From contig NZ_CACVBR010000006.1 of assembly GCF_902728265.1 (NCBI RefSeq), forward strand, positions 62,001-126,000: a DNA stretch of 64,000 nt, given 5' to 3'. Source of the stretch: Chryseobacterium potabilaquae (GTDB lineage Bacteria > Bacteroidota > Bacteroidia > Flavobacteriales > Weeksellaceae). A program made the translations under genes and the position numbers. Below are positions 9,180 to 24,231 of the stretch, one piece after another. Every line of letters begins with the position of its first letter. Positions within the stretch are counted from its first letter, which is position 1. The notes under the pieces were generated by a model that made no database searches, was not told the DNA's origin, and saw nothing but the letters and a program-made list of their open reading frames with translations.

Positions 9180-10019
9180 ATGATGACAAAAAAAATCTCA
9201 ATTACCAAAAGCGCGGCAGAAAGCTTGTTATTCTGCATTATGTTTTTATTAGCACTATCTGCAAATAGGGTACAGGCCCAAACAACCTGTTCCAATACAG
9301 CGGATATTTTGCCTAATGGAGTTACATCTGTTAACGGTGTGCAAGTTCTCTCTACTTCTACAGGTTCTGTACAAAATGTAGGATTTATTGGGTTTCCCTT
9401 AGTTTGTAGCCCTTTGAATCTTGGGACGGGTCAAGGCATGGCCGTTGGGGCTACTGGAGGTTGGTCTATAAACCTTATTTTTGATAAACCGGTTAATGAT
9501 TTGATGGTATTAATTAGTGGTGCTGATACTAGTAGTGGTGCTGAAAATTTTATTTTTAATTCTAATATGGGTACTGTCTCCATTTCTTCTGACAATTATT
9601 GTGGAATGGTTATTGCCGGAAATCAAATTATTACTACCGCTGTTGGGGGAGGTATTTATAAAATTCATTCTCCGATTTCTTATACACAATTGACCATGAG
9701 TGGAGGAGGAGGTTCTGATGGAAGTAATATCGGAATATGCTCAGCAAGTATTAATGTATTAGGAGTGCATGATATTGTTGGTATGAAAAATGATATCGTA
9801 GATATTTTTCCAACTCCCACAAAAGGCTTAATCACCATTTCATCTAAGGAAAATTTAAAATCATATAACATTTTTGATGAATCGGGAAAAATGGTCTTAT
9901 CATCTTTTTTAAAAGGAAATAAAAAAGAAGTTGATTTATCTATTTTGAAGCCAGGAAACTATATCATAACGATAGAAACAGAAACGAAAACGATCAACAA
10001 AAAAATAATTAAGCAATAA
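9180..10019 (+). CDS. secreted T9SS type A sorting-domain protein (paralog 1)
   Basis: This 279-residue secreted protein has three parts. A signal peptide covers residues 1-34 (ends VQAQ). A unique beta-rich domain of about 150 residues follows, with VNDLMVLISGADTSSGAENFIFN and a Gly-rich SGGGGSDGS motif. The last 70 residues are a type A C-terminal sorting domain (IFPTPTKGLITISSKE to KKIIKQ) that directs export by the type IX system and anchoring or release at the surface. Close paralogs occur at 22102 and 23389, a truncated one at 20774 and a deleted one at 21744. The passenger domain function is unknown. It is followed by its own terminator. Confidence 0.85.
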   Translation: MMTKKISITKSAAESLLFCIMFLLALSANRVQAQTTCSNTADILPNGVTSVNGVQVLSTSTGSVQNVGFIGFPLVCSPLNLGTGQGMAVGATGGWSINLIFDKPVNDLMVLISGADTSSGAENFIFNSNMGTVSISSDNYCGMVIAGNQIITTAVGGGIYKIHSPISYTQLTMSGGGGSDGSNIGICSASINVLGVHDIVGMKNDIVDIFPTPTKGLITISSKENLKSYNIFDESGKMVLSSFLKGNKKEVDLSILKPGNYIITIETETKTINKKIIKQ

Positions 10020-10126: not shown

Positions 10127-11329
10127 TTAAATAGAATTGGTGAGTTTTTTTGTATAGGTAAAATAAATTCCTGTGATAGAAATTATAATCAATATACAAA
10201 CAACTAACCATAGACTTCTAAAACCATAATTTTGAGCTAAGAATGTACCTAGAAATGGAGATATAAATAGGGCTGTCGAAAAGATAGCTCCAAATAAACC
10301 CATATAAGAGCCTATGTTTTTACCTTCTGCCCGGATAGAAGTAATGGTAGACAAAAATGGAATTACTAATATGTTGGAAATAGATATACAGGTAATGGAA
10401 ATAAGGATAAGATATATATCCGAAAAAAATACCAATATGAAATATCCTGTGAACAATAAAAATAGGCCTAATATTACAATATGAATTATATTTAAAACTT
10501 TTGTGAGCCATTTTACTAAAGGCATTTCTATCATAAAAAGCAAAAGACCACAATAGCCAAAGATCATTCCGATTTCTATTTTAGATAATCCTACATTTTT
10601 ATAAAATAGGGGTAATGTACTGAATAGCTGCATGAGGCATACTGCATAAACAACACAAAAAAGAATAAAAATCAAAAAATATTTGTCTTTATATGGGGAA
10701 TGCTTATTTTGAGAAATAGTATCATTATTTTTGGAGGTTGTTTTTATTTTATCTTTAAAGAAAAGATAGAGAATGCTTCCCGAAATGAATGCTGCGATCG
10801 CATTTACATAGAATATAAGGTTATAAAAAACAGAGGAAAGAATCCCTCCCAAGAAAGGTCCTATGAAAAAGCCTAAGTTTAAAGCTAATCTGTTTAAAGA
10901 AAATGCTCTAGCTCTGTTCTCTAATGAGGAATATTTTGTAATGGCAACAGAGTTGGCAGGTAAAAAAATCTCACTGAAGGTACTCTGCAAGAAAAGAATT
11001 ATAGATAGAAGGTGAAAGTTTTTTATTTCCGGAATTAATAGAAGTCCGGGAATACACAAAAATAGACTTACAATCTGGACTTTGAAATATCCCATTTTGT
11101 CCACCATCTTACCTCCTAAGTAGGATCCTAGAATGGCACCTAAACCATAAAAACTTAGCAATGTTCCTGTTTCTTTTAATGAAAAACCAAGTTTCTCTGT
11201 TAGATACACTCCAAGAAAAGGAAGTACCATAGAGCCTGAACGGTATACTAGCATAACAACAGATAGCATCCATGATTCTTTAGCTAATCCTTTATATGGA
11301 CTAATAAAAAAATTAAATATGCGATTCAT
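10127..11329 (-). CDS. MFS transporter, possible exporter of the peptide-cluster product
   Basis: A 400-residue, strongly hydrophobic protein with about 12 predicted membrane helices. Its fold is that of a major facilitator drug/H+ antiporter. GAILGSYLGGKMVDKMGYF at about 69-87 corresponds to the conserved loop 2-3 motif GxLxDRxGR, and helix 5 has GFFIGPFLGG. It is the last gene of an unbroken minus-strand series that begins at 16895, 66 nt after the acetyltransferase. Its position suggests export or self-protection for that cluster, but this is inference and it could be an independent efflux pump. Confidence 0.85.
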   Translation of the reverse strand: MNRIFNFFISPYKGLAKESWMLSVVMLVYRSGSMVLPFLGVYLTEKLGFSLKETGTLLSFYGLGAILGSYLGGKMVDKMGYFKVQIVSLFLCIPGLLLIPEIKNFHLLSIILFLQSTFSEIFLPANSVAITKYSSLENRARAFSLNRLALNLGFFIGPFLGGILSSVFYNLIFYVNAIAAFISGSILYLFFKDKIKTTSKNNDTISQNKHSPYKDKYFLIFILFCVVYAVCLMQLFSTLPLFYKNVGLSKIEIGMIFGYCGLLLFMIEMPLVKWLTKVLNIIHIVILGLFLLFTGYFILVFFSDIYLILISITCISISNILVIPFLSTITSIRAEGKNIGSYMGLFGAIFSTALFISPFLGTFLAQNYGFRSLWLVVCILIIISITGIYFTYTKKLTNSI

Positions 11330-11395
11330 GTGAACTTAGCAATACTTAATTTATTGGATATTGATAACGTATTGCGAATTTTAAATAGCTTGCTC

Positions 11396-11908
11396 CTATC
11401 CATTCTTAACTAATAAATAGAAACGGTGAAGATTATGAAATTGATTATTCTTATAAACAGCGTCTATTGAAATTCCTTCTTCTATAAAACCATTATTTTT
11501 TAATACTTTCATAGATGCTATATTATGCTCAAATACGTTAGCAAAAATTCTATTTACATCTAAGCTATTTTCCGCATAATCTATCATTTTTTTTATTGAA
11601 GTACTGGTAATTCCTTTTTTCCAATATTCTTCTCCGATCCAAAATCCAATTTCTATACTTTTTCTATATACATCAGGTTGCTTAATGAAACTTATGACCC
11701 CAACAAGTTGGTTATTGAAATCAATGCCAAATGTTAATTGCAAATCTTCTTTAGAGACCATTGCTATAAAGTTTTTTGCATCATCAATAGTATATGGATG
11801 AGGGAAAATATCCCTCATGTTATTCCATATATTTCTATTGTTTGCTAATGTACTCAGCACTTCTGTATCATGTACAGATAATTTTCTTAATATTATTACA
11901 TCTTCCAT
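11396..11908 (-). CDS. GNAT N-acetyltransferase (RimJ/RimL type)
   Basis: A 170-residue acetyl-CoA dependent acetyltransferase. The start IILRKLSVHDTEVL, the middle block IEIGFWIGEEYWKKGITSTS (acetyl-CoA site, about 100-119) and the late VFEHNIASMKVLKNNGFIEEG are the standard RimJ/RimL features, with NIASMKVLKNNGF the most diagnostic. Targets of this type are often the N-terminus of a protein or an amino group on a small molecule. It lies 101 nt after the second TrpRS-like gene and 66 nt before the MFS gene, so it may be a tailoring or immunity enzyme of the cluster. Confidence 0.88.
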   Translation of the reverse strand: MEDVIILRKLSVHDTEVLSTLANNRNIWNNMRDIFPHPYTIDDAKNFIAMVSKEDLQLTFGIDFNNQLVGVISFIKQPDVYRKSIEIGFWIGEEYWKKGITSTSIKKMIDYAENSLDVNRIFANVFEHNIASMKVLKNNGFIEEGISIDAVYKNNQFHNLHRFYLLVKNG

Positions 11909-12009
11909 TGGTGAAATTAATTATTGACCTGTTCCATTAGTAGGAAAAGGTTAATGTTTTCCTCTCATTTTTTGGATAGGGTATTTTTTTAGTATTTATT
12001 ACTTTTGTA

Positions 12010-12957
12010 TTAAATGCTATAGATGTTTAGAGAGTCTTTCAGTGGAAATAATGATTCTTTTAAAAGGTGTTCCACAGAATTCTTTCCTTTATCAAGTACA
12101 TCGAGTAAAAACTCATTAGTCAATTGGTTTTCTCTAAAAGGTCTTAATTCTTCGGCTAAAATATGGAAAAAATTCATTTTTGCATCTGTTGTTAAATTAG
12201 AAAGCTCTAACTCTTTTGACAGATCTTCTCTGTGTAGAGAGTTGTACCATTCTTGGAATACTCTTTTGTCATTTATAGACATAATTTTAGATTCCAGGTC
12301 TTCCAATTTTTCGCTTAGGAAAACACAGTTTTTTTGGATCATATATTTACCATCCACTCCATTAATATATCCGATCTTTGAAGGTACGTACTCGGGGATA
12401 TTAATAGAAATTCCGTTTCGTCTTTTAAGATTTTCAGCTATTTCTTGCATGATATAGATGTAGCCGATAATTTCTTCACCTCCTTGGAAGTAATCTGCAT
12501 TAAGGCTTAATGCCATAGACGCTATTCCAAGTTGGGGGTATAGCCATTCTGTGACAGATGGATAATTGCTAAGCCCTAATTCTTTTCTCTGATAAGATTT
12601 CAAAGATCCTAGAAATGAATTTTCATATAAGTGATTACAATATTCAGTATCAATTACTGTGCTATAATATAGCATATGTTCCAGGAACAAATGAGCAATA
12701 TCTGATGTTAATACAATATTATTATTTTCTATATCAAATCCTGAATTGATAAAATCTTGTACCACATACAATGTTCTATTTTGAATGTATTCTCTTTCTT
12801 TCGGATACATAAAATAAGCCAAAAGGTCATCTAATACTACAATTGTATTGTATTCATGTTGGCATTCAACTAAAGATTTCATTGCTCCGAAATAATGCCC
12901 CAAATGTCTAGGTCCTGTTACTGGATTGTGTGCACTTATTAAATTTTTTCTTTCCAT
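12010..12957 (-). CDS. TrpRS-like class I aminoacyl-tRNA synthetase paralog A, altered KMSKS
   Basis: The 315 residues follow the tryptophanyl-tRNA synthetase outline from end to end. They have an N-terminal HIGH-type motif TGPRHLGHYFGAMKS (about 15-29), YPQLGIASMALSLNADYFQGGEEIIGYIYIMQEIAENL at the position of the TrpRS helical and GxDQxxHLExTRDIA blocks, and ELRPFREN near the C-terminus like TrpRS PIRERR. The KMSKS loop is not conserved: it reads GKYMIQKN followed by FLSE. Paralog B at 14789 has GEYMFQHN at the same place. The start is ATG 12957, chosen because it lines up with paralog B. It is not expected to be the housekeeping enzyme. A role in peptide or amino-acid activation is inferred from its neighbours. 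Confidence 0.8.
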   Translation of the reverse strand: MERKNLISAHNPVTGPRHLGHYFGAMKSLVECQHEYNTIVVLDDLLAYFMYPKEREYIQNRTLYVVQDFINSGFDIENNNIVLTSDIAHLFLEHMLYYSTVIDTEYCNHLYENSFLGSLKSYQRKELGLSNYPSVTEWLYPQLGIASMALSLNADYFQGGEEIIGYIYIMQEIAENLKRRNGISINIPEYVPSKIGYINGVDGKYMIQKNCVFLSEKLEDLESKIMSINDKRVFQEWYNSLHREDLSKELELSNLTTDAKMNFFHILAEELRPFRENQLTNEFLLDVLDKGKNSVEHLLKESLFPLKDSLNIYSI

Positions 12958-13043
12958 TTTTATTATTTTTTTTATGTTGTGGTAAATAGAGACCAATAAA
13001 ATTGGCCCCTATATAATACTAAGGAATTACAGTTAAAATTGGT

Positions 13044-13244
13044 TTATTCGCAGTCCTGTTTTATATCACTGTCATGAATTATGATATTTTCATCGACCAT
13101 ATTCATCATTCTAAGTTTATCTCTTGTTATTTCCAGAGGAGTACTTAGCATAGGCTTTACGTTTTCAAAAACGGGTGTTGCCTTACTGTCAAGAGATTTT
13201 ACTTTCCCTTTGATTTCTTGGGTGTTTTCTTTTACTGTTTTCAT
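13044..13244 (-). CDS. 66-residue candidate precursor or scaffold peptide A
   Basis: A 66-residue peptide running from MKTVKENTQEIKGKVK through TPVFENVKPMLSTPLEI and RMMNMVDENI to the C-terminus HDSDIKQDCE. It has no signal peptide and no double-Gly leader site. It is identical to peptide B except Gln9 instead of Lys9, yet 21 of 66 codons differ, so it is under protein-level constraint. It lies 15 nt after peptide B and next to a radical SAM gene with a peptide-recognition domain. I infer a modified peptide precursor or carrier. I do not recognise a named family. Confidence 0.85.
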   Translation of the reverse strand: MKTVKENTQEIKGKVKSLDSKATPVFENVKPMLSTPLEITRDKLRMMNMVDENIIIHDSDIKQDCE

Positions 13245-13259
13245 TGTAATACTTTTTGA

Positions 13260-13460
13260 TTATTCACAATCTTGTTTTATATCACTATCATGAATGATGA
13301 TATTTTCATCAACCATATTCATCATTCTAAGCTTATCTCTTGTTATTTCAAGGGGTGTGCTCAACATGGGCTTCACATTTTCAAAAACAGGTGTCGCCTT
13401 ACTGTCAAGGGACTTTACTTTCCCTTTAATTTCTTTGGTGTTTTCTTTTACTGTTTTCAT
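13260..13460 (-). CDS. 66-residue candidate precursor or scaffold peptide B
   Basis: First of the two tandem peptide genes in transcription order, 15 nt after the radical SAM gene. It has 65 of 66 residues in common with peptide A (Lys9 here). The N-terminal half is Lys-rich and amphipathic, as expected of a leader bound by a recognition domain. The C-terminal half has three Met (RMMNM), an Ile triplet and one Cys next to the terminal Glu. Candidate sites for radical or C-terminal chemistry are the Met/Asn stretch and the CE terminus; this is inference. Confidence 0.85.
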   Translation of the reverse strand: MKTVKENTKEIKGKVKSLDSKATPVFENVKPMLSTPLEITRDKLRMMNMVDENIIIHDSDIKQDCE

Positions 13461-13475
13461 TTTAATACTGTTTAA

Positions 13476-14777
13476 TTATAGTAATTCCTTAATATTTACT
13501 GTTTTTCCAAAATAATTATCAGCAGTGGTTAAACTTCTCCACTTATTCATGTTATCGGATTCTTGCCAAACATGGATAAGATCGCGTCCTATAATATTTC
13601 CTGCATCCCATTCATGATTATTTTCGACATCCACTCTTTTAAGTTTTACTGAAACATAGCATAATCCTTGAGGTGTTATTCTCATTAATCGCTCTCCTGT
13701 TCTGGTGAGTAAAGGTTGGTCGTTAATTAATCCTCTGAATACTTCTTCATCCACATCATTTACAATTTCTTGCCATGCTGAGTCAGCGGGTTTAATAATT
13801 TTATCATCGACCAGTTGCTTCAATAGAAGATTCGCCTGATACAGTTCTTCATTATTTGGCATATCTTTTTCTAGGTTAAGAGCTCTTCCTGCGATATATA
13901 GAGGTGCAAAACTATATCCTAAAGGTTTGTATGGGGATATCAATTTTCCAATATTATAAATGTCATCTTTATTATATTTTGTCAATACAGTACCCACTAT
14001 AAAAGGAACATTATGCTTTTGAAGTAGCTCCATTCCCTTCATCACTTTTAAGAAATTTCCTTTTCCTCTGTATTGTTCACATATTTCTTTAGTAGAACCG
14101 TCTAGTGTTGTTTGCAGGAAAACAAAATTCTTTAGCTGGCTCAAATAAATAATATCTTCTTCAGTTGTTAATGTTAAATCTGAACCAATTGACACCATTA
14201 AGCCTAAGCTATCTGCATATGCTACCATTTCTAAAAGGTCTTTCCTCCTTGTAAATGGATCTCCTCCTGTAAATCTTACATAATAAACACCTGAATCTGA
14301 AATATTTTTAATAATAGGAAGCCATTGCTCAACGGTGAGTTCTTGAGAAATATCTACACGAGGATTACTGAAATATGAACAATAAGAGCATTCTCTAGCA
14401 CATTTATTAGTACTTTCAATCTCAACACCTAAAGGGGAATAGAAATATTCATCAGAGAAAGCTTCATCCGGAATATCTTCAAAATAAAAAATAGGTTTGT
14501 TTATAGGGTCTTGGTTTTTAAAGTCAACGCAGATATCTACTCTTTTTAAAAGATCTACAAAACTTTCTATTTCCTCGAGGGTAACTTTTGATATATCAAA
14601 ATCTTCTGATATTTTTTCATAAATTTCTAAAATATTCTTAGGGCTTTTTAAAGCCAATATGATTTGGTATCCTAGTTTGTTGAAAAATCTTACTGATCTT
14701 CTTTTGTTGATTAACACAATACAGCCGAAACTTTCTTTTCGTATTTTCAATTGTGAATGTAAGATGAGCTTTTCCAT
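13476..14777 (-). CDS. radical SAM peptide-modifying enzyme with N-terminal PqqD-like domain
   Basis: A 433-residue protein. Residues 1-90 look like a PqqD-type peptide recognition element (FGCIVLINKRRSVRFFNKLG, then ILEIYEKISEDFDI and FVDLLKRVDI). The radical SAM core follows, with CxxxCxxC at Cys126, Cys130 and Cys133 binding the 4Fe-4S cluster, and GGDP at 171-174. The C-terminus keeps a SPASM-like shape (RITPQGLCYVS, AGNIIGRDLIHVWQESD) but has only one Cys (373), so the usual auxiliary clusters are probably missing. It lies 11 nt after TrpRS-like B and 15 nt before peptide B. Likely substrate: the tandem peptides. Confidence 0.88.
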   Translation of the reverse strand: MEKLILHSQLKIRKESFGCIVLINKRRSVRFFNKLGYQIILALKSPKNILEIYEKISEDFDISKVTLEEIESFVDLLKRVDICVDFKNQDPINKPIFYFEDIPDEAFSDEYFYSPLGVEIESTNKCARECSYCSYFSNPRVDISQELTVEQWLPIIKNISDSGVYYVRFTGGDPFTRRKDLLEMVAYADSLGLMVSIGSDLTLTTEEDIIYLSQLKNFVFLQTTLDGSTKEICEQYRGKGNFLKVMKGMELLQKHNVPFIVGTVLTKYNKDDIYNIGKLISPYKPLGYSFAPLYIAGRALNLEKDMPNNEELYQANLLLKQLVDDKIIKPADSAWQEIVNDVDEEVFRGLINDQPLLTRTGERLMRITPQGLCYVSVKLKRVDVENNHEWDAGNIIGRDLIHVWQESDNMNKWRSLTTADNYFGKTVNIKELL

Positions 14778-14788
14778 ATTATTTCGGT

Positions 14789-15769
14789 TTAAAAATTATT
14801 ATTTATGCTGGTTGATGACATTTTATAAATCCCTTTTTTTATAGTTCCAATATGATTGACCAATTGATCTTTTATTTTTTCATAGTTGGAGAGGATGATA
14901 CTGTCTAAATAATCTATTCCCAATTGGTTTTCTCTAAAAGGTTTTAATTCATTTACTAGTATATCTTTAAGAAGTGTTTTGAGGTATGTGAAGTCTGTAT
15001 CTATGGAATAAAATTCAAAGACATTTTTATGTCCTGCTGAGGTAAGCCAATCTTTGAGAATGTTTTTATTTTCAATGGTTTCAATTTTTTCAATGATAGA
15101 ATCTTCATCCTCTGATAAGAAAATGCTATTATGTTGAAACATATATTCGCCATCTAATCCTAGTACATATCCATTTCTTGAGGGCTCGTATACTGGGGGT
15201 GGATTATAATCATCATATACTTTCTTTATATTATTCTTTATATTATTCATAATATAGGTATAGCCAATGATCTCTTCACCGCCTTGGAATAGTTCTGTCT
15301 CCAAGGCAAGGGAAACGGCAGGCATCCCTAATTGTGGATAAAGAAGCTCAAAAACAGAGGGGTATAAATTAAGTCCCAATTCTTCACGTTGATAAGACTT
15401 TAAACCTCCAAGGAAAGAATTCTCATATAAATAATTGCAAAATTTATAGTCAATGAAATCGGCATAAAAAATCACGATCTCCATGATGTATGGCAAATAA
15501 GAACTTGTTAAAACTACATGATTTTTTTCCGTGTCATAACCACAATTAATGAAATCCTGTAATACAAAATAAGTCCTGTTTTTAATGGCATGAGCTTCTT
15601 TTGGATTCATTAATATCGCCATAATATCATCTATGACCAGATAGGATTCGTGTTTATATTGATTATTAACAAAATCTTTCATGGATCCCCAATAATGGCC
15701 TAAATTTCTAGGGCCGAAGATGGGGTTTTGTACGCACACTTGCTTTAATTTATACCTATTATCTTCCAT
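14789..15769 (-). CDS. TrpRS-like class I aminoacyl-tRNA synthetase paralog B, altered KMSKS
   Basis: A 326-residue relative of the protein at 12010. Shared blocks include GPRNLGHYWGSMKDF, YENSFLGGLKSYQREELGL, LYPQLGMPAVSLALE, FQGGEEIIGYTYIM and ELKPFRENQL. The first His of the HIGH motif is Asn here (NLGH), which is tolerated in some TrpRS. The KMSKS position reads GEYMFQHN with FLSE following. A C-terminal Ser/Asn-rich tail is unique to this copy. It overlaps the upstream AAA+ gene by 11 nt and precedes the radical SAM gene by 11 nt, so these three are surely one operon. The substrate is unknown. Confidence 0.82.
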   Translation of the reverse strand: MEDNRYKLKQVCVQNPIFGPRNLGHYWGSMKDFVNNQYKHESYLVIDDIMAILMNPKEAHAIKNRTYFVLQDFINCGYDTEKNHVVLTSSYLPYIMEIVIFYADFIDYKFCNYLYENSFLGGLKSYQREELGLNLYPSVFELLYPQLGMPAVSLALETELFQGGEEIIGYTYIMNNIKNNIKKVYDDYNPPPVYEPSRNGYVLGLDGEYMFQHNSIFLSEDEDSIIEKIETIENKNILKDWLTSAGHKNVFEFYSIDTDFTYLKTLLKDILVNELKPFRENQLGIDYLDSIILSNYEKIKDQLVNHIGTIKKGIYKMSSTSINNNF

Positions 15770-16895
15770 ATTTTTTAGTGTAAAATAAATTGATGAAGTC
15801 TTTTGTTAGCTCTATTTTATTCTCCTGAATTTCATTGATGATAGAAGGCACAATGACGTCTAGGATTTCTGTAGATTTTGAGTCATAACCTTGCTTTTTC
15901 ATTGAGCTAGCTTCCTTTTTATAGGTGTTCAATAATTTTAATTTATTTTTTTGCTCAATAAAATTTTTTCTATTTATATCAAATGTTTCAATGATTCTTT
16001 TCTTGGTTTTTTTTAAGGAAAGGACATCAATCTCATTCGTTTCTTTAAAGATATTTTTGAATAAGGGGTCTTCAATTAAATTGGCATGGAAATCTTCCTG
16101 ATATTCTAGCTCAATAAGTTGATCAGAATATCTGAATTCATTATCCATAACTAAGCTAGAACATGCCAGATCTATCAAGTCAATAGCTTTATCCGGGAAG
16201 TAAGAATCCGGAATGTTCTGAGTAAGATATATTGCCTCAAGAATCGCTTCATCACTAATTAATATTTTATAAAATTCTTCATATCTGTATTTTAGTTTTT
16301 TTATAATTAAATAAGTGATATAATCTTCAGGTTCTTCGATAGTTATTTTATGAAACCTTCTATCTAATGCTTTATCTAATGAAATGGAAGTACTGTATTC
16401 CATAAAAGTAGTGGCTCCGATGAGTTGTATATCACCTCTTGCAATGAAAGGTTTAAGGAGATTTACAAAATCCACTGAACCTTCAGAGGCACCTGCTTTC
16501 ATAATAGTATGTAATTCATCTATAAATAAAATGACATCGCTATTGCATATTTCTTTTAAAAGTTGTTCGGCTCTTTCTTCAAATTCTCCCCTATAACTTG
16601 TTCCAGCAAGCATAGTGGACATTTTAATTCCATATATTTTTTTGTTTTTCAGTGCATCTGGTACCTCATTTTGAACAATCATTTGAGCAATACATTCAAT
16701 AATTGCTGTTTTTCCAACACCGGGATGCCCTAGCAGTATTACATTATTTTTAATTCTTCTGCATAAAGTTTCGATCACTTTTTTTATTTCTATATTTCTA
16801 TAAAAAACAGGGTCGTATCTCTTTAATTTAGCGTTTTCGTTAAAGTTAATAGCATACTTTTCAATCGAAGACTCAATGGATCTATTATTTTCCAT
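15759..16895 (-). CDS. single-domain Clp D1-like AAA+ ATPase
   Basis: A 378-residue ATPase matching only the first AAA+ module of ClpA/ClpB/ClpC. It has EKYAINFNENAKLKRYDPV, Walker A GHPGVGKT (56-63), pore loop SYRGEFEER (100-108), Walker B VILFIDELH (121-129), sensor 1 GATT (160-163), arginine finger DRRF (178-181) and FPDKAIDLIDLA. The Clp N-domain and the second AAA+ module are absent; the last 130 residues are charged, probably coiled coil. No ClpP docking loop is seen. It is the first gene of the minus-strand cluster. It might remodel or thread the peptide or the synthetase-like proteins; this is inference. Confidence 0.88.
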   Translation of the reverse strand: MENNRSIESSIEKYAINFNENAKLKRYDPVFYRNIEIKKVIETLCRRIKNNVILLGHPGVGKTAIIECIAQMIVQNEVPDALKNKKIYGIKMSTMLAGTSYRGEFEERAEQLLKEICNSDVILFIDELHTIMKAGASEGSVDFVNLLKPFIARGDIQLIGATTFMEYSTSISLDKALDRRFHKITIEEPEDYITYLIIKKLKYRYEEFYKILISDEAILEAIYLTQNIPDSYFPDKAIDLIDLACSSLVMDNEFRYSDQLIELEYQEDFHANLIEDPLFKNIFKETNEIDVLSLKKTKKRIIETFDINRKNFIEQKNKLKLLNTYKKEASSMKKQGYDSKSTEILDVIVPSIINEIQENKIELTKDFINLFYTKKYGR

Positions 16896-20773: not shown

Positions 20774-21475
20774 TTGAGGATTTTTTCCGTAAATATAGGT
20801 GGAGTGCAAGTGACGAGTTCTTCTTTTGGATCTATACAATATTCAATTATTGGAGACTTTTATAGAGCTTGTGAGGGTGGACTCATGTCTACAGGAAGCG
20901 GTTTACATGTGGGTGAAAATGGTTCTTGGTCTGTAACTCTTTCTTTCAGTAAAGCAGTGAACAATGTAGCTGTGGTAATCAGTGGTGCTGATACTGTTAC
21001 TAGGCCTGAAGATTTTATTTTTAGTACGAATGGAGGATCGGTTTCTATTATCCCGGGAGAGTCTTGTAGAATGAATATTGTTGGTAATACAATAACTCCT
21101 TTGCCGGGGCAAGCTGGATCAGGTTTCTATTTGATCAATTCTACCCCTTATACACAATTAACAATTAATGGAGGTGGTGGATCTGGGGGGAGTGTAATAG
21201 GTGTATGTTCCGCAAGTGTTTTGGGGACACAAGATGTGAAAAGTATTCAAAACGAAATGATAGATCCTACTCAAGTAAAAGATATATTGACTATTTCCTC
21301 TAAAGAGCCTTTGAAATTCTATAGGATTTTTGATGAATCTGGAAAACTTATTGTATCTTCTACTATTGAAGGTAATAAGAAAGATATTAACTTATTAGGT
21401 ATTATGACCGGAAGCTATATTATTGCAGTAGAAACGAAGACGCAAACTATAAATAAAAAAATAGTCAAAAAATAA
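20774..21475 (+). pseudogene. 5'-truncated T9SS type A paralog (paralog 2)
   Basis: This frame encodes the passenger domain and sorting domain of the paralog family (SGADTVTRPEDFIF, NGGGGSGGSVIGVCSAS, ending TINKKIVKK) but lacks the signal peptide and the first 20 or so mature residues. Homology starts around VNIGGVQVTSSSFGS. The only available starts are TTG 20774 or later codons. It lies in the same frame as the 888-residue gene, separated by its TAA at 20759-20761, so a deletion probably joined the two. Without a signal it could not be exported unless the TAA is read through. A terminator remains downstream. Confidence 0.75.
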
Positions 21476-23388: not shown

Positions 23389-24231
23389 ATGATGACAAAA
23401 AATTTATTTATTGATAGCACTTTTAAAAGAAAGTTTCTATCAGGTTCTATAATTTTTGGCCTATCTCTAAGTGCATGCTCAGTACATGCACAAATATGCC
23501 AAAATACGATTAATATGCCAGCTAATGGATCTATAAATGTAGCAGGTGTAAACGGGAGTGTAAGCTCATCAGGGTCAGTGATATATGTGCCTGCAAGTGT
23601 TTTCTTAGGAAGTTGTCCGGGAGTGGATGTTCTTTCAACGGGCAGCAGTTTGGACGTTGGAGTGAATGGCAGTTGGTCAACAACTATTTCTTTTAACACA
23701 CCCGTTAACAATATAGCATTTGTAATTAGTGGTGCTGATACTCTGACTAGGTACGAGGACTTTATTTTTAATTCTAATGGAGGTGGAATCAGTATTTTTC
23801 CTGCGAATTCTTGTGGAATGAATATTAGCGGTAATACGATAGCAGCTGCACCTGGAGGCCTAGGGGCTGGAGTATATGCTATTCATGCTTCGAGCCCTTA
23901 TACCCAATTAACCATCACTGGAGGTGGTGGATCTGGGGGAAGTAGGATAGGGATTTGTTCTGCGAGTTTTCTAGGAGCACAGGAGATAAAAAATATAGGA
24001 AATAGTACTGTTGATATCTATCCTTCTCAAGTTAAAGATGTGATGACTATCTCTTCTAAGGAGAATTTAAAGTCTTATAAAATTTTTGATGAGGCTGGAA
24101 AGCTTATCTCATCTGCACCACTTGGAATCAATAAAAAAGAGGTTAATATGTCTGGTATTATGCCTGGAAACTATATTATTTCAGTAGAAACACAGACACA
24201 AACAGTCAATAAGAAAATAATTAAACATTAA
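23389..24231 (+). CDS. secreted T9SS type A sorting-domain protein (paralog 5)
   Basis: A 280-residue member of the same family. The signal peptide covers about 1-35 (ends CSVHAQ). The passenger domain has GSWSTTISFNTPVNNIAFV, SGADTLTRYEDFIFNSNGG and TGGGGSGGSRIGICSAS. The sorting domain runs from DIYPSQVKDVMTISSKE to TVNKKIIKH. It differs from paralog 4 mainly in surface loops and the signal region, while the SGAD and Gly-rich blocks are fixed. It has its own terminator, so each paralog appears to be a separate transcription unit. Function is unknown; adhesion is a guess from export route only. Confidence 0.85.
   Translation: MMTKNLFIDSTFKRKFLSGSIIFGLSLSACSVHAQICQNTINMPANGSINVAGVNGSVSSSGSVIYVPASVFLGSCPGVDVLSTGSSLDVGVNGSWSTTISFNTPVNNIAFVISGADTLTRYEDFIFNSNGGGISIFPANSCGMNISGNTIAAAPGGLGAGVYAIHASSPYTQLTITGGGGSGGSRIGICSASFLGAQEIKNIGNSTVDIYPSQVKDVMTISSKENLKSYKIFDEAGKLISSAPLGINKKEVNMSGIMPGNYIISVETQTQTVNKKIIKH

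Follow-up and report, generated by a model that had tools for sequence, protein, structure and literature searches.

Gene organisation and conservation of the cassette

The window, meaning the whole 64,000-nt stretch of Chryseobacterium potabilaquae DNA that was analysed (NZ_CACVBR010000006.1, positions 62,001-126,000; window coordinates are used below), contains eight minus-strand genes in a row at 10127-16895. These encode an AAA+ ATPase, a tryptophanyl-tRNA synthetase (TrpRS)-like protein (TrpRS-like A), a radical S-adenosylmethionine (SAM) enzyme, two tandem peptides, a second TrpRS-like protein (TrpRS-like B), a GNAT acetyltransferase and an MFS transporter (Table 1). Both the row and its tight spacing had been described in a first-pass annotation of this DNA and agree with the open reading frame (ORF) coordinates: the AAA+ and TrpRS-like A genes overlap by 11 nt, a gap of 11 nt separates the latter from the radical SAM gene, and peptide 1 follows after 15 nt, with a further 15 nt between the two peptides.

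The AAA+/TrpRS-like A/radical SAM/peptide/TrpRS-like B core of this row is a real unit. Counts across the genus, which cover the radical SAM, peptide and TrpRS-like genes, give one and the same group of five among 173 genomes for the radical SAM gene, for the peptide and for TrpRS-like B (A being its second match), and all of these genes are jointly absent from the other 168. A scan of genome contigs from 84,980 species with two TrpRS-like motif patterns, which relatives lacking those motifs would escape, returned 59 stretches and four loci with relatives, namely those of C. oryctis, a Chryseobacterium metagenome-assembled genome, C. defluvii and Flavobacterium sp. LHD-85. Six cassette loci were compared (the window, C. 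oryctis (G463), G535, G555, C. defluvii and Flavobacterium sp. LHD-85), and the AAA+, GNAT and MFS genes were sought in these loci only. In the co-occurrence test put forward in the first-pass annotation, the peptide, the AAA+ gene and both TrpRS-like genes accompany the radical SAM gene in 6/6 loci at a radical SAM identity of at least 65%. The order AAA+, TrpRS-like A, radical SAM, peptides, TrpRS-like B is kept in all five Chryseobacterium loci, four of which continue with GNAT and then MFS; these last two genes, included in the set as first proposed, do not belong to the core, C. defluvii having neither ortholog. In Flavobacterium sp. LHD-85 the identities to the window are 51% (AAA+), 56% (TrpRS-like A), 65% (radical SAM), 72% (peptide) and 69% (TrpRS-like B), the GNAT gene (34%) sits between TrpRS-like A and the radical SAM gene, and there is a single peptide copy.

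Comparison of the flanking DNA of the window, G535, G555 and C. oryctis indicates that only G535 and G555 share some of it (77-78% upstream), and the cassette therefore lies at differing places; it was presumably gained by transfer. Over the order, the radical SAM profile identified 2 of 395 genomes, the window's own (G000) and G277, and over the class the TrpRS-like profile identified 1 of 277, the window's own. TrpRS-like A matched 61 of 395 genomes at 1e-5, of which only G000 and G277 were counted as family, the other 59 being set aside as ordinary TrpRS (best E 7e-9, 23-34% identity); G463, G535 and G555 are not among the 61, and the 395-genome draw may not include them. The radical SAM profile at E 1e-40 found 0 of 398 genomes in the presumed Flavobacterium genus, an empty result that carries no weight without a positive control.

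Carriage as phage or plasmid cargo was rejected: TrpRS-like A has no match in plasmids or phages, and alignment of TrpRS-like A and B against viral contigs identified 150 stretches with the pattern and no relative among them. Peptide 1 likewise has no match in plasmids, the peptide not having been searched in phages or viral contigs. TrpRS-like B matches 25 plasmid records, 24 from Staphylococcus and one from Streptomyces; the ten matches listed are ~26% identical, nine being annotated trpS and one without annotation. The trpS genes of Staphylococcus epidermidis plasmids are weak matches to TrpRS-like B that are ordinary TrpRS by annotation.

Table 1. Features of the cassette and its immediate neighbours in the window
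Feature	Position	Strand	Description	Basis
AAA+ ATPase	15759-16895	-	378 aa; ClpB NBD1-type single module	family models, motifs
TrpRS-like A	14789-15769	-	326 aa; NLGH kept, YMFQH at KMSKS site, Trp-pocket Asp lost	
Radical SAM enzyme	13476-14777	-	contains CxxxCxxC; N-terminal domain weakly PqqD-like; one Cys (C373) in the SPASM-like C-terminus	
Peptide 1	13260-13460	-	66 aa, ending in DCE; 44 C-terminal residues near invariant	
Peptide 2	13044-13244	-	66 aa; 44-residue core same as peptide 1, 16 silent codon differences	
Hairpin	12986-13012	-	12 pairs, in spacer between peptide 2 and TrpRS-like B; in 5/5 Chryseobacterium copies	
TrpRS-like B	12010-12957	-	315 aa from ATG; HLGH kept, YMIQK at KMSKS site	
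GNAT acetyltransferase	11396-11908	-	ortholog in 4/5 Chryseobacterium sets; 34% relative within Flavobacterium cassette	
MFS transporter	10127-11329	-	ortholog in 4/6 sets; NRPS (non-ribosomal peptide synthetase) and ABC-transporter genes instead in other two	

Outside the cassette, the DNA at 9439-10000 is ~65% alike to that at 20976-21456 and 23651-24212, so that similar stretches flank the cassette on both sides, and the left one falls in a gene whose product carries a type IX secretion tail.

A peptide with a near-invariant C-terminal core and the hairpin that follows it

Alignment of ten peptide copies, from which the gapped second copy of C. defluvii was left out, indicates that the first ~20 residues vary and that the sequence is near invariant from residue 23 to the terminal DCE, with Cys65 and Glu66 invariant in 10/10 copies. 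Over the last 44 codons, each of the nine other copies is separated from window copy 1 by 14-23 silent and 0-2 amino-acid-changing differences, and the other copies differ from that of Flavobacterium by 16-24 silent and 2-3 changing differences; at most 2 changing of 18 differences corresponds to a binomial P of ~1e-10, given that 82% of random point changes should alter the protein and with codon differences taken as independent point changes. The core of the window peptide is identical to that of Flavobacterium at 42 of 44 residues, the enzymes meanwhile being 51-69% identical. The peptide is a real gene. Within the window, the tandem copies are set apart in their cores by 16 silent and 0 changing differences (binomial P ~1e-12, assuming independent random point changes), and both copies therefore seem old and kept. 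Two tandem copies are found in the Chryseobacterium sets, the second copy of C. defluvii being broken by an assembly gap (N, L035:11307-11404) and not fully readable.

This near-invariant core is the opposite of what a diversifying core peptide would be expected to have and fits a docking or carrier peptide. A diversifying bacteriocin was rejected for the same 44 codons, given 14-24 silent against 0-3 changing differences. Neither peptide matches a Pfam or NCBIfam family at E 1, and peptide 1 matches no PADLOC family.

The spacer downstream of the peptides folds in the five Chryseobacterium copies with an energy 3.4-6.0 standard deviations below mononucleotide shuffles, the Flavobacterium spacer reaching only 1.4. 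The hairpin is conserved at the sequence level. All 58 of 58 cells of its alignment pair, yet 10 of the 12 pairs show no variation and 197 of 500 shuffles score equally well, and covariation consequently gives the hairpin no support. A consensus terminator scan lists no site at this position. The hairpin is possibly a partial terminator or a 3'-end stabiliser, and it may raise the output of peptide over that of TrpRS-like B.

The TrpRS-like pair

TrpRS-like A and B, which are ~45% alike, match tRNA-synt_1b at E 2.8e-6 and 1.3e-10 respectively and reach only 44 and 65 bits against the trpS equivalog cut-off of 176.75 bits; the ORF of TrpRS-like B has a further possible TTG start at 12996. The AlphaFold2 model, made of TrpRS-like B only, has a predicted local distance difference test (pLDDT) score of 81, and among the 50 Foldseek matches shown from the PDB, 48 are TrpRS, the query-normalised template modelling score being 0.63-0.79 over all 50. 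The rank-1 match is a chain of 3u1v (title: de novo designed esterase), which accounts for two of the 50. The model thus predicts that the TrpRS fold is kept in TrpRS-like B.

Residues were compared between ten family rows (without Flavobacterium) and 29 canonical Bacteroidota ORFs, one per locus, and the counts of the KMSKS and HIGH motifs were extended by the Flavobacterium pair to 12 family proteins. The HIGH-type motif is kept in the family, and KMSKS is present in 0/12 proteins, YM[FI]Q[HK]N standing there in 12/12, whereas the canonical rows keep each KMSKS position in 28-29 of 29. The Asp of the Trp pocket, which binds the indole, is found in 29/29 canonical rows and 0/10 family rows (Val, Ile or Met instead), and the Gln after GED, also invariant in the canonical set (29/29), is likewise absent from all ten. 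The stretch after the KMSKS site measures 108-117 residues in the family against 131-163 in the canonical set, ~20 fewer, and an insertion lies at the LKDQ stretch that carries the canonical Lys. Two other class Ic synthetase genes, of 431 and 323 aa, are present in the window's genome and are taken for TyrS and TrpS respectively; the latter aligns with the canonical TrpRS set and carries KMSKS. Given the loss of KMSKS, of the pocket Asp and of ~20 C-terminal residues, the pair look like neofunctionalised paralogs and are unlikely to be working TrpRS. The loss of KMSKS in particular argues against ordinary ATP-dependent adenylation.

The radical SAM enzyme and the AAA+ ATPase

The radical SAM core is matched at E 1.1e-19 and CxxxCxxC is present, which bears out the enzyme class given in the first-pass annotation; the PqqD-like domain claimed alongside it falls below the Pfam cut-off (E 0.034 in the window). 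Model matches include the PqqE, mycofactocin and SkfB maturases, the best NCBIfam score in the window being 108.5 bits against a cut-off of 400. Features were counted over seven proteins, the six close relatives and one from Thermus. After residue 300 there is one Cys in five, two in one (C. oryctis) and none in the Thermus protein, and a single Cys position there is conserved in 6/6 close relatives. Although Pfam SPASM matches 2/7 proteins (best E 6e-4), this scarcity of Cys makes SPASM-type auxiliary clusters unlikely. The relative from a Thermus thermophilus plasmid is 30% identical to that of the window over 97% and occurs on two Thermus plasmids; on the one plasmid inspected, no peptide or TrpRS-like gene is annotated within 8 kb. 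That gene (L045:7842-10506) has an extra N-terminal stretch and overlaps an MFS gene.

The ATPase aligns to positions 152-512 of the 853 of the ClpB model, which corresponds to the first nucleotide-binding domain (NBD1) with neither the N-domain nor NBD2. The motifs GxPGVGKTA, ILFIDE, GTSYRGEFEE and DKALDRRF are present in 6/6 relatives; the Walker motifs and a pore-type loop are thus kept, and the ATPase could grip the peptide.

Non-ribosomal peptide synthetase setting

In C. defluvii an NRPS gene (TubC_N, C, A, PCP, C) extends at its end into the start of the AAA+ gene, and ahead of this NRPS gene lie one for an outer-membrane barrel and one for a small carrier protein. On the other side, TrpRS-like B is succeeded by genes for a fatty-acid-hydroxylase-like protein, a GNAT and an ABC transporter and then by a second NRPS gene that runs off the contig. 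In Flavobacterium the genes are arranged alike, with NRPS genes on both sides, and 16 nt separate the end of the first NRPS gene from the start of the AAA+ gene. Condensation domains at E 1e-10, searched in five genomes, number 89 in the window's genome, 7 in G535, 2 in G555 and 0 in C. oryctis. The window's own genome is NRPS-rich, its 89 matches being spread over many contigs, as against 0-7 in the four others. The cassette is thus found with and without an adjoining NRPS, as would be expected for the maker of a self-contained small unit.

Discussion

The best reading of the cassette is a carrier-peptide route of the pearlin or LysW type in which TrpRS-fold proteins replace the LanB-like or ATP-grasp loader. 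In this reading, to which we assign an even chance, the cassette would build a small amino-acid-like molecule held covalently on a ribosomal carrier peptide. The scaffold-peptide idea of the first-pass annotation is strengthened by a peptide that is invariant at its C-terminus and variable at its N-terminus and by the NRPS setting, and the interpretation as a whole is partly supported. We infer the chemistry, the loading site and the product, as well as the following five steps, which are listed from the most to the least certain. In its C-terminal part the peptide would be a docking surface for the enzymes, reused and not made into a variable product. The TrpRS-fold pair, possibly an A/B heterodimer, would load a non-Trp amino acid or amine on the peptide end (...DCE), probably from aminoacyl-tRNA or another activated donor, because the ATP-handling KMSKS loop is lost; the pair are the best candidates for loading by elimination, since the eight genes include neither a peptide aminoacyl-tRNA ligase (PEARL) nor an ATP-grasp enzyme. 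The radical SAM enzyme would then dock via its PqqD-like domain and alter the loaded residue by one-cluster radical chemistry, the AAA+ module may grip the peptide for release or recycling, and the freed unit might be acetylated and exported (GNAT, MFS) or passed to the adjoining NRPS. The full version of this scheme, in which a TrpRS-fold pair without KMSKS and Trp recognition forms the loading amide bond, the radical SAM enzyme tailors, the AAA+ ATPase unloads and the unit goes straight to an NRPS, is tentative and on the doubtful side; it would bring ribosomal, synthetase-type and non-ribosomal peptide chemistry together within a single cluster.

Several known systems resemble the carrier-peptide route in part. 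According to PMC9303977, the carriers of the pearlins (3-thiaglutamate, 3-thiahomoleucine, ammosamide) need only their C-terminal sequence, the N-terminal part being dispensable, and the 3-thiahomoleucine cluster has radical SAM tailoring and a transporter. The likeness to the cassette lies in a short ribosomal carrier with a conserved C-terminus and an N-terminus that is variable here and dispensable there, as well as in the tailoring and transporter genes. The cassette differs in that no LanB-like PEARL (mechanism summarised in the review PMC12945691) occurs among the eight genes or the scanned C. defluvii and Flavobacterium neighbours, in lacking a protease, in the TrpRS-fold loading proposed and in the presence of an AAA+ ATPase. 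In LysW-type carriers the substrate is hung on the C-terminal Glu and the units made can feed an NRPS, as with DADH in vazabitide A (PMC9303977). The LysW and Vzb22 amino-group carriers thus resemble the cassette peptide as small carriers ending in Glu (Glu66 in 10/10 copies), whereas no ATP-grasp ligase is found among the eight genes. The cassette peptide ends QDCE and has no Pfam family; LysW, in contrast, has the end motif EDWGE and a globular domain. The IleRS-like SbzA forms an amide from Ile-tRNA (PMC12945691), and a synthetase fold is therefore able to do amide chemistry. SbzA is a relative of the class I synthetases that has come to form amides within a natural-product gene cluster, as is proposed for the cassette proteins; SbzA, however, retains AMSKA and has a small molecule as its target (same source), and the cassette proteins are TrpRS-like without KMSKS, two paralogs beside a peptide. 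The radical SAM maturases of ribosomally synthesised and post-translationally modified peptides (RiPPs) such as SkfB, PqqE, MftC and WgkB have the radical SAM core in common with the cassette enzyme, whose putative PqqD-like domain for peptide binding may be a further likeness; the cassette enzyme scores far below the NCBIfam cut-offs and is missing the auxiliary-cluster cysteines. No title or abstract opening in the literature searched, from which subscription papers were mostly absent, names this gene set.

Several observations weigh against the carrier-peptide route. No protease family is present among the eight genes to free a product, unlike in the described pearlin pathways, and the role of the AAA+ ATPase in release is a guess. 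The loss of KMSKS and the short C-terminus would also be compatible with TrpRS-like proteins that bind without catalysing a reaction, and nothing points directly to the loaded group or to its place of attachment. The PqqD-like domain (PF05402) is matched in 5/7 radical SAM proteins at E up to 1 (best 0.013), which is sub-threshold, and the AlphaFold2 model of the radical SAM enzyme, with a pLDDT of 47, is too poor for use. Furthermore, C. oryctis has the cassette without any condensation domain, and the NRPS link is therefore not general.

It is conceivable, though unlikely, that the cassette is instead a RiPP pathway like those of pyrroloquinoline quinone (PQQ) or mycofactocin, in which a few C-terminal residues of the peptide (for example Asp-Cys-Glu), once altered by the radical SAM enzyme, would be excised to give the product, and the TrpRS-like proteins would attach a tailoring group or serve as partners. 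The PqqD-like domain, the maturase matches and the invariance of Cys65 and Glu66 in all ten copies are consistent with this, and PQQ and mycofactocin precursors are conserved since their product is fixed. Nevertheless, 44 near-invariant residues exceed the need of a small product, a protease is again lacking among the eight genes, SPASM-kind auxiliary clusters are improbable with one conserved Cys after residue 300, and two TrpRS-like genes are left unexplained. That the end product is the full 66-residue peptide in modified form, as a bacteriocin, toxin or metal-binding peptide with MFS and GNAT providing export or immunity, is quite improbable: the tandem copies and the hairpin downstream of them may point to abundant production of the peptide, but the core is near invariant and not diversifying, the peptides lack a Pfam match (both) and a PADLOC match (peptide 1), and no peptidase-bearing peptide exporter is present among the genes scanned in the window, C. 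defluvii and Flavobacterium. The single copy in the Flavobacterium set argues in the same direction, and the NRPS setting would be unexplained.

The patchy spread (5/173) at differing places, like that of accessory defence loci, raises the possibility of a module for regulation or defence, with tRNA or amino acids sensed by the AAA+ and synthetase-like proteins and with the peptide acting as a signal, and PADLOC matches the AAA+ protein to IetA (E 6e-9) and the radical SAM enzyme to prokaryotic viperins (E 1e-10). This scenario is given even less credence than a peptide end product, since these matches span only parts of domains and look generic to superfamilies, and NRPS and transporter neighbours fit metabolism better; a known defence system was rejected on the generic look of the matches. 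An extra synthetase copy in a cluster can also serve in self-resistance, SbzA being described as such a self-resistance copy in PMC12945691, and by the logic of indolmycin and chuangxinmycin the TrpRS-like proteins might protect against a cluster-made TrpRS inhibitor. Such a role is scarcely credible and was rejected on the residue evidence, as KMSKS is missing in 12/12 proteins and the pocket Asp is lost in 10/10 while kept in 29/29 canonical rows; moreover, the two copies are diverged (~45% alike) and the genome has separate canonical-looking synthetases.

If the carrier-peptide route is true, another enzyme fold would join the short list of those that hang a small molecule on a ribosomal peptide. 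The cassette would then be a plug-in for both NRPS clusters and stand-alone export clusters. It also offers a test case for the fate of an aminoacyl-tRNA synthetase after the loss of its ATP-binding loop and amino-acid pocket.

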